Made by a program: the position numbers and the translations under genes. The notes under the pieces are model-generated. The model was not told the origin of the DNA and made no database searches. It saw nothing but the letters and a program-made list of their open reading frames with translations. 64,000 bases of DNA from Burkholderiales bacterium (lineage in GTDB: Bacteria > Pseudomonadota > Gammaproteobacteria > Burkholderiales > Burkholderiaceae_C), in assembly GCA_028868995.1 (NCBI GenBank), contig JAGWTH010000005.1:1-64000 (forward strand). The letters are read 5' to 3'. Positions 61,506 through 62,294 of this stretch are shown here, in pieces (position 1 is the first letter of the stretch; each line of letters opens with the position of its first letter).

Positions 61506-61596
61506 GGAGAGGTGGATGAGCGGTTTAAGTCGCACGCCTGGAAAGCGTGTGTGGGTTAATAGCCCACCGCGGGTTCGAATCCCGCCCTCTCCGCCA
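61506..61596 (+). tRNA. tRNA-Ser (anticodon GGA)
   Basis: The 91-nt gene includes an encoded CCA. The acceptor arms GGAGAGG and CCTCTCC pair fully. The anticodon loop CTGGAAA gives GGA (61540-61542), and a long variable arm (GTGGGTTAATAGCCCAC) marks a class II serine tRNA. The T-arm is GCGGG-TTCGAAT-CCCGC. Its last 17 bases form the left end of an integration site. Confidence 0.97.
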
Positions 61597-61600
61597 GTGT
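61580..61600 (+). repeat. Left attachment site (attL) at the tRNA-Ser 3' end
   Basis: This is one copy of a 21-bp direct repeat beginning TCCCGCCCTCTCCGCCA, the last 17 bases of the tRNA, plus GTGT. It continues with near-identity for about 25 bp more (GGCCACTGTAA shared). Confidence 0.85.
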
Positions 61601-61659
61601 CCAGGCCACTGTAAAAGCCCTGGAAAATCAACGAGTTGGAAGTGGACAGTGAAGACCAC

Positions 61660-61682
61660 TTCCCCCACGCTCTTCCCCCACG
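61660..61682 (+). repeat. Left pair of candidate integrase arm sites
   Basis: TTCCCCCACG occurs at 61660-61669 and 61673-61682, a 13-bp period. The right pair at 62197-62219 has exactly the same sequence and period. Matched short repeats just inside each att site are typical of arm-type binding sites for tyrosine recombinases. Confidence 0.65.
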
Positions 61683-61787
61683 CCCAACATCGAGAACACG
61701 GCCCCAAGCGGGTACGCCGTTCGCCTGTCCGCTGCTCGAGAAAAAACAGGGCACCCGTTAGGGCACCCTGTAGGTCTTCGCTGTGGA

Positions 61788-62162
61788 TCAGCGAGCGGCC
61801 AGCTTCGACAAGGCCACCCACGGCCCGCTGGCAGTCTTCACCATCACCTCCCCGGTAGTCGGGTCCACGCCGGACTGCAGGCCCGTAGCGGCCAGCTTCG
61901 CGCTCATGGCCTCATGGGTCTGGTGGGCCTTGTTGCGCTTCCACTCGAGGGCCTCCTCGAGGACCGCATCGGTCTGGCCCTCGGCCTTGCGTAGCTGTGC
62001 CTTCCACAAGGCCACGACGGGGGCGGCGAGGGCTTCTGCCCGGCGCTTGTCAGGGGTGCCCAGCGACTGCAGGAACTTGGCCTTCCCGACCTTCTCCTGC
62101 AGCTTCGGTGGGACCTTCAAGGTGGCGTACCAGAGGTTTCGGCGCTTCTCGATGTGCGGCAT
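61788..62162 (-). pseudogene. Truncated tyrosine-integrase N-terminus
   Basis: This 124-residue product begins MPHIEKRRNLWYATLKVPPK and continues KFLQSLGTPDKRRAEALA. That is the N-terminal arm-binding module seen in phage-type tyrosine recombinases (DUF6538-like). A helical stretch follows, and the frame then stops at 61788. The core-binding and catalytic domains with the R-H-R-Y residues are absent. It is either a dead fragment or a small DNA-binding protein that could still bind the arm sites. It is transcribed towards the tRNA. Confidence 0.75.
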
Positions 62163-62196
62163 GGGGGCCCTTCCGTGGAGCCCCGAGTCTACTGTC

Positions 62197-62219
62197 TTCC
62201 CCCACGTTTTTCCCCCACG
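62197..62219 (+). repeat. Right pair of candidate integrase arm sites
   Basis: TTCCCCCACG at 62197-62206 and 62210-62219, again 13 bp apart. The pair lies 35 bp upstream of the truncated integrase start, so Int binding here could also regulate its own gene. Confidence 0.65.
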
Positions 62220-62273
62220 ATTGAGGTCAATTCTCCCTCTCACACAGGGGAAAGTGGGTGATTGGGCGGAATG

Positions 62274-62294
62274 TCCCGCCCTCTCCGCCAGTGT
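62274..62294 (+). repeat. Right attachment site (attR)
   Basis: An exact copy of the 21 bp at 61580-61600, including 17 bases of the tRNA-Ser 3' end with CCA. The following TCCGGCCACTGTAAGCGTCC is a diverged copy of the sequence after attL. It has no tRNA body. Confidence 0.85.

Follow-up and report, generated by a model that had tools for sequence, protein, structure and literature searches.

MITEs are internally deleted elements that have kept their ends and encode no enzyme; they occur in multiple copies and are moved by a related transposase. CIMEs (cis-mobilizable elements) are defined in PMC5704250 as derivatives of an ICE or IME that retain attL and attR, have lost the integration genes and can be moved by the integrase of another element; tandem accretion at an att site is described there as well. 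In a passage of PMC3146451, CIMEs, and tandem accretion as well, are invoked for the integrase-less ssrA islands of Dehalococcoides. The tDNA islands of Islander, as outlined in PMC4383910, are of the tyrosine-integrase kind. Among the titles and abstract openings listed in the literature searches, none names the locus described here, and these searches gave no paper on DUF6538 or on a Ramlibacter genomic island with tRNA-Ser.

The locus is a 694-bp unit in tRNA-Ser(GGA), located near the end of a window of 64,000 nucleotides (the whole stretch of DNA that was analysed, part of a 125-kb contig). The unit is real and well explained: very probably, it is an internal-deletion derivative of a tRNA-Ser(GGA) island with a DUF6538 tyrosine integrase.

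Attachment cores and arm-type sites

The unit is bounded by an exact direct repeat, which consists of the last 17 bases of tRNA-Ser(GGA) and 4 more and has a spacing of 694. This repeat is the core of a longer one of 46 nt (87% identity), which extends 25 nt beyond the core at lower identity. When up to 3 substitutions were allowed, the 17-bp tRNA part matched the 125-kb contig only at the two core positions and at two background positions with 3 mismatches each. The block that follows the core was also considered as a conserved RNA hairpin and dropped; 37 and 93 of 200 shuffled sequences fold as well as its two copies.

Each end of the unit has one exact pair of TTCCCCCACG decamers, placed 3 bases apart (Table 1); if up to 3 mismatches are allowed, the number of decamer-pair matches expected in the window is still 0.02. 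The IHF-like site was called with WATCAANNNNTTR, which we take to be the IHF consensus, and is one of 2 exact matches to it on both strands of the 125-kb contig. Both the exact duplication of the tRNA 3′ end around a 694-bp unit and the matched decamer pairs at its two ends had been described in the initial annotation, and both are confirmed.

Table 1. Features of the tRNA-Ser(GGA) locus, in window positions
Feature	Position	Strand	Basis or remark
tRNA-Ser(GGA), intact, CCA encoded; integration target	61506–61596	+	ARAGORN
attL, left attachment core, 21 bp common to attR	61580–61600	+	exact repeat
IHF-like site AATCAACGAGTTG, between left core and left arm sites	61626–61638	+	consensus match
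Left arm-type pair TTCCCCCACG-CTC-TTCCCCCACG	61660–61682	+	exact match
Intrinsic-terminator-like hairpin downstream of fused ORF, 11-bp stem, T tail	61746–61771	−	folding vs shuffles
124-aa integrase-like ORF	62162–61788	−	ORF list
Cargo-derived 3′ part of ORF, C-terminus like that of a 341-aa ORF of G161	61788–61895	−	boundary approximate, residues ~76 to ~94
Integrase-derived 5′ part of ORF, residues 1 to ~76, DUF6538	61935–62162	−	74–75% identical to G077 and G161 integrases
Right arm-type pair TTCCCCCACG-TTT-TTCCCCCACG	62197–62219	+	exact match
Right core, attR for the 694-bp unit and probably attL for an older remnant as well	62274–62294	+	repeat comparison
Decayed sequence, probably from the left end of an older sister island: CAGTGTnnnGGCCACTGTAA block followed by degenerate decamer pair at 62371–62394; right border provisional	62295–62395	+	
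Host flank: MerR-like regulator gene, running past the window, TTG start by eye; adjoins tRNA-Ser in G011 too	62919–64000	+	

The 124-residue open reading frame

The N-terminus of the ORF is a DUF6538 domain (PF20172, E 4.2e-11), and the resemblance to integrases is limited to residues 1 to about 76–85 of the 124. Over 77–79 residues, this part is as close as tabulated to two complete integrases, one from a genome of the same genus (G077) and one from a genome of the same family (G161). PF00589 is absent from the ORF, whose sole domain in a scan with E up to 1 is DUF6538, and the unit has no integrase gene with a catalytic domain on board. The integrase part contains neither a stop nor a frameshift. 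Its dN/dS is 0.30 against G077 and 0.18 against G161 (0.18 between G077 and G161), values compatible with an early or a late loss of the integrase and with past or present constraint.

The last part of the ORF is unlike the integrases, and its final ~35 residues resemble the C-terminus of a cargo protein of the G161 island. Between residues 81–124 and the C-terminus of that protein, 13 of 29 aligned residues are identical, and the score of 70 was reached by none of 1000 shuffles (mean 26.5, sd 4.2). The match of this tail to the G467 homologue is weaker (score 43, 4 of 500 shuffles), that to the G354 homologue is at chance level (74 of 1000 shuffles), and the G334 homologue gave no C-terminal match (19 of 500 shuffles, at a different place). 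As a query, the G161 cargo protein matched none of the 60 genus genomes, the unit's own included; the ORF tail therefore lies below the reach of that search. On the 3′ side of the ORF, the hairpin has a z of −3.6, with none of 200 shuffles folding as well. It is among the 2 sites of the overall terminator scan, which found no excess over the 1.4 in shuffles.

Most simply, these matches suggest that the ORF is an in-frame join of two genes, although the junction lies in assembled sequence and may be a misassembly. The unit had initially been described as keeping only an integrase N-terminus. This is right for the integrase, which is indeed reduced to that part, and wrong for the end of the ORF, given its likeness to the C-terminus of a cargo protein.

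Tyrosine integrases often carry an arm-binding domain where DUF6538 sits. The fused ORF might be a working protein, a fragment that binds the arm sites, sits on the decamers and either blocks sister islands that arrive or regulates them. Its frame is open, GGAAGG ahead of the ATG is by eye a candidate ribosome site, and both the terminator-like hairpin and the decamers have been retained. We nevertheless consider such a role highly improbable. A join falls in frame with a chance of 1 in 3, the dN/dS values are uninformative on present constraint, and the structure predicted from a 2-sequence alignment (pTM 0.30) is too poor for use. Moreover, no relative of the complete fusion was found in genus genomes, genome contigs, viral contigs, plasmids or phages. 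With the whole ORF as the query, 3 of the 60 genus genomes matched (its own, G077 and, at 30%, G082) and 1 locus did so in the wider genome contigs, while viral contigs, plasmids and phages held no relative.

A separate candidate, a conserved free-standing small gene, was rejected for this ORF, as the database searches gave no sign of one.

Sister islands and decayed relatives

The identification of the locus as the remnant of an integrative element in tRNA-Ser(GGA), proposed in the initial annotation, is borne out by full-length relatives. In G161, an island of about 15 kb lies in tRNA-Ser(GGA) and carries an intact DUF6538 tyrosine integrase. Its order is tRNA-Ser(GGA), left decamer pair, genes, an inward-reading integrase at the right end, right decamer pair and attR. 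A scan of 379 family genomes found exactly two decamer pairs in this genome, 14.9 kb apart versus 537 bp in the window. G077 encodes a complete 415-aa integrase on a 5-kb contig, and the right end of its island is the same as that of the unit (decamer pair, tRNA-Ser 3′ end, then extra-island sequence), the left part lying beyond the contig. In G354, the integrase is at the far end of an island of about 7.6 kb in tRNA-Ser(GGA). The full integrase was matched in 9 of 399 family genomes at E 1e-20 or better, the unit's own fragment counted. None of the genus and family genomes searched yielded a direct parent, in which both the integrase and the end of the cargo gene would be the same.

Five islands could be compared at both ends (that of the window, G161, G458, G187 and G354), and in each of them the left arm repeat equals the right one. 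Read by eye, the repeat changes from island to island, except that the unit and G161 share TTCCCCCACG; it is TTACCACACG in G458, TTAACCCCA in G187 and TTCACACC in G354. The left ends of the G458 and G187 islands show a tRNA-Ser-like 3′ end, with no full tRNA within the stretch fetched.

We propose that the parent island integrated into the 3′ end of tRNA-Ser(GGA) by means of a tyrosine integrase with an N-terminal DUF6538 domain. One deletion would then have taken the integrase codons from about 76–90 onward, through to the last ~35 codons of the cargo gene, and would have fused the two remaining pieces in frame. Both ends would survive because a single internal deletion leaves them untouched.

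The cargo of the G161 island includes a T7 gp14-like protein, a gp13-like protein, a helicase, a resolvase and DUF2806, and the gene matched by the ORF tail adjoins those for the T7 gp14-like and gp13-like internal virion proteins. The parent may therefore have been a T7-like prophage or phage satellite instead of a defence-type island, a variant that does not contradict the deletion origin of the unit and that we hold to be unlikely. Capsid, portal and terminase are absent from the G161 island proteins scanned, which are a subset of its ORFs. The G161 integrase matches 27 of 50,697 phage records, none over more than 80% of the length and all below 60% identity, and it has no match in viral contigs. 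Furthermore, the sister islands of G458 and G187 carry defence-type genes, namely type I restriction genes in the former and a caspase-like gene (E 6e-16) with a weak TIR-like match (E 9e-6) in the latter.

Homologues of the G161 cargo protein occur in 3 of 399 family genomes (G161, G467 and G334) and were not found in phages or viral contigs. Island-like modules with a homologous 303-aa-type cargo protein and a resolvase are present in three genera (L080:4157–16861, L098:3568–13388 and L097:4568–9567); the resolvase was tested with Pfam in G161 and recognized by eye in G334 and G467. G161 and G334 have a protein of about 990 aa in common (38% over 992 aa), and at E 0.1 the Protein Data Bank contains no relative by sequence of the 998-aa protein of G161. 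No virion family was recognized among the scanned proteins of G334 and G467, and no capsid, portal or terminase is among the module proteins scanned (for G161, part of the ORFs). Perhaps these modules are podovirus satellites that carry their own ejection proteins.

The G001 island, at tRNA-Ser (L026:6600–7962), has a similar left end, in which the second decamer is one base short, followed by an HTH protein (PADLOC HTH_VI, E 7e-25), a label that presumably belongs to type VI retrons. The contig ends within the island and cuts the next ORF, which by eye may begin a reverse transcriptase.

The 694-bp unit is present once in its own genome, and a search of 60 relatives reported no further copy. 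All 61 genomes match the unit somewhere, mostly in the tRNA, and none matches it as a whole; G001 alone matches far into the left end (query 1–184), and short matches within the unit (36–62 bases, 76–86%) occur in G004, G008 and G010. The search of the unit's own genome yielded no full cognate integrase, the second match there being a 32% partial one; G077 has an integrase with the same arm sites. Genomes with exact decamer pairs number 3 of 60 in the genus (own, G009 and G077) and 3 of 379 in the family (own, G161 and G265). No second case of two exact pairs less than 2 kb apart was seen in these 60 and 379 genomes, in a scan that covered TTCCCCCACG decamers only.

These counts bear on the idea, preferred to random decay in the initial annotation, of a non-autonomous, MITE-like element, and on its functional form, an element that is moved in trans by sister integrases and spreads as such. 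In its favour, none of the two cores, four decamers and IHF-like site is damaged, and sister islands with the same arm sites exist in the genus and the family. However, the single copy, the lack of other close exact pairs and the failure to find a cognate integrase in the genome all argue against it, as does the retention of a cargo-gene end, unneeded in cis, and of a terminator; we regard it as very unlikely. The accompanying argument, that exactly the sequences needed in cis were kept, is not supported either. In G009 and G265, the single decamer pair is the left arm beside tRNA-Ser, and in G015 one intact decamer is left beside tRNA-Ser; none of the three has an exact right arm pair. Retention of two arms is thus one outcome of decay among others. 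In this small sample, it suggests that both arm pairs were kept here owing to the position of the deletion rather than to selection for a mini-element.

In G009, an 18-base second copy of the tRNA 3′ end lies 3.4 kb downstream, with decamers absent beside it; this genome may retain both cores despite having one arm pair. The region (L103, reverse strand, 184–3600) is possibly another decayed island of the same family.

The unit is now incapable of excising on its own. In principle, it could be recombined in trans by a sister integrase specific for TTCCCCCACG arms, which is the route proposed for cis-mobilizable elements. MITE-like mobility is unsupported, though it might occur given such an integrase. 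One might even imagine a combined role, in which the unit is a minimal cassette mobilizable in trans while its fused ORF competes with integrases at the decamers; in that case, the product of a deletion would keep further sister islands out of the tRNA-Ser site. We consider this very unlikely.

The right flank and likeness to known systems

In the 60 genus genomes, the block CCGCCAGTGTnnnGGnCACTGTAA is present without mismatch at the two cores described here, at the left end of the island in G001 and nowhere else; with up to 1 mismatch, it occurs at this locus only among 399 family genomes (G001 left out). On the same strand, TTCCCTCACGCCGTTTCCCGTTCG begins 77 bp past the right core and has 4 mismatches to the decamer pair. 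Apart from the two exact pairs and their shifted registers, no decamer-pair match in the contig is better, and 10 others have 5 mismatches. The 126 bases past the right core resemble the unit's own left end more than any of 1000 shuffles do, and resemble the G001 and G161 left ends more weakly (40 and 45 of 1000 shuffles). Once the 46-nt repeat is passed, modest similarity is left (24, 24 and 37 per 1000 shuffles). In these comparisons, the two rows for G001 are cut 8 bases ahead of the rest. The interval 62295–62905 has two short matches only, of 26 and 35–37 bases, in the 59 remaining genomes of the genus. Judged from these repeats, the right flank probably stems from the left end of an older, since eroded sister island, and the locus is probably a small tandem accretion. 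The site would probably have been used earlier, with the older island pushed outward by the newer integration into the tRNA.

A contig of the viral collection (L108:4179–4272) shows by eye a TTCCCCCACG left end that abuts the apparent end of a different element with the repeat GGCCTACA, perhaps another tandem junction at a tRNA-Ser-type core.

The uninserted site is represented by G011, in which the MerR-like gene lies beside tRNA-Ser with one core copy and no unit between. The initial annotation had named three kinds of relative that could be sought in related genomes. Two of them exist, namely full-length elements (G161, G077 and G354) and this uninserted site; the third, another 694-bp copy, was not reported in the 60 relatives. 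The distance from the tRNA end to a conserved MerR-like motif is 353 bp in G011, 747 bp in G028, 1258 bp in G014 and 1203 bp in G021, and in the window the MerR-like gene is about 650 bp from the right core. Since this interval is variable, it is by itself no proof of an older element.

Upstream of the MerR-like gene, in an AT-rich stretch of 43% GC, 7 of the 8 TAGACAG/CTGTCTA motifs of the 125-kb contig cluster at 62694–62870. Such motifs also lie upstream of the MerR-like homologues in G011, G028, G014 and G021 (4 of 5 loci gave an answer), and from its sequence the cluster looks like an operator array.

With MITEs, the unit shares the internal deletion, the retained ends and the missing enzyme. 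It differs from them in being site-specific, in lacking several near-identical copies and in having no helper found in its genome. The G161 island (L080) has the same target, the same arm decamers at both ends, an integrase with a 75% identical N-terminus and a cargo protein with a similar C-terminus; it differs in its length of about 15 kb and in its intact integrase, resolvase, helicase and virion-like genes. Because the arm repeats of related tRNA-Ser islands in this bacterial family vary and yet match within each of the five compared, the arm-site specificity of DUF6538 integrases would be directly testable.

As in the Islander tDNA islands of PMC4383910, an intact tDNA is accompanied by a displaced 3′ tDNA fragment in direct orientation, and the relationship is to tyrosine integrases. 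The filters, as that source describes them, would drop the unit, which is shorter than 2 kb and has no PF00589 integrase found on board; units so small escape these length and integrase criteria. The closest likeness is to CIMEs, as presented in parts of PMC5704250 and PMC3146451. In both cases the integrase has been lost while attL and attR are kept, here by sequence, and the unit probably resembles CIMEs, too, in standing in tandem with a second element at the 3′ end of the targeted gene. The unit differs in having only 694 bp and no intact cargo gene. It is best filed as a very small CIME-like remnant, the likeness being one of retained ends and lost integrase, whereas a conjugative or mobilizable parent would be a further, hypothetical point of agreement, and it illustrates how far a tRNA island can be gutted with both ends still readable.
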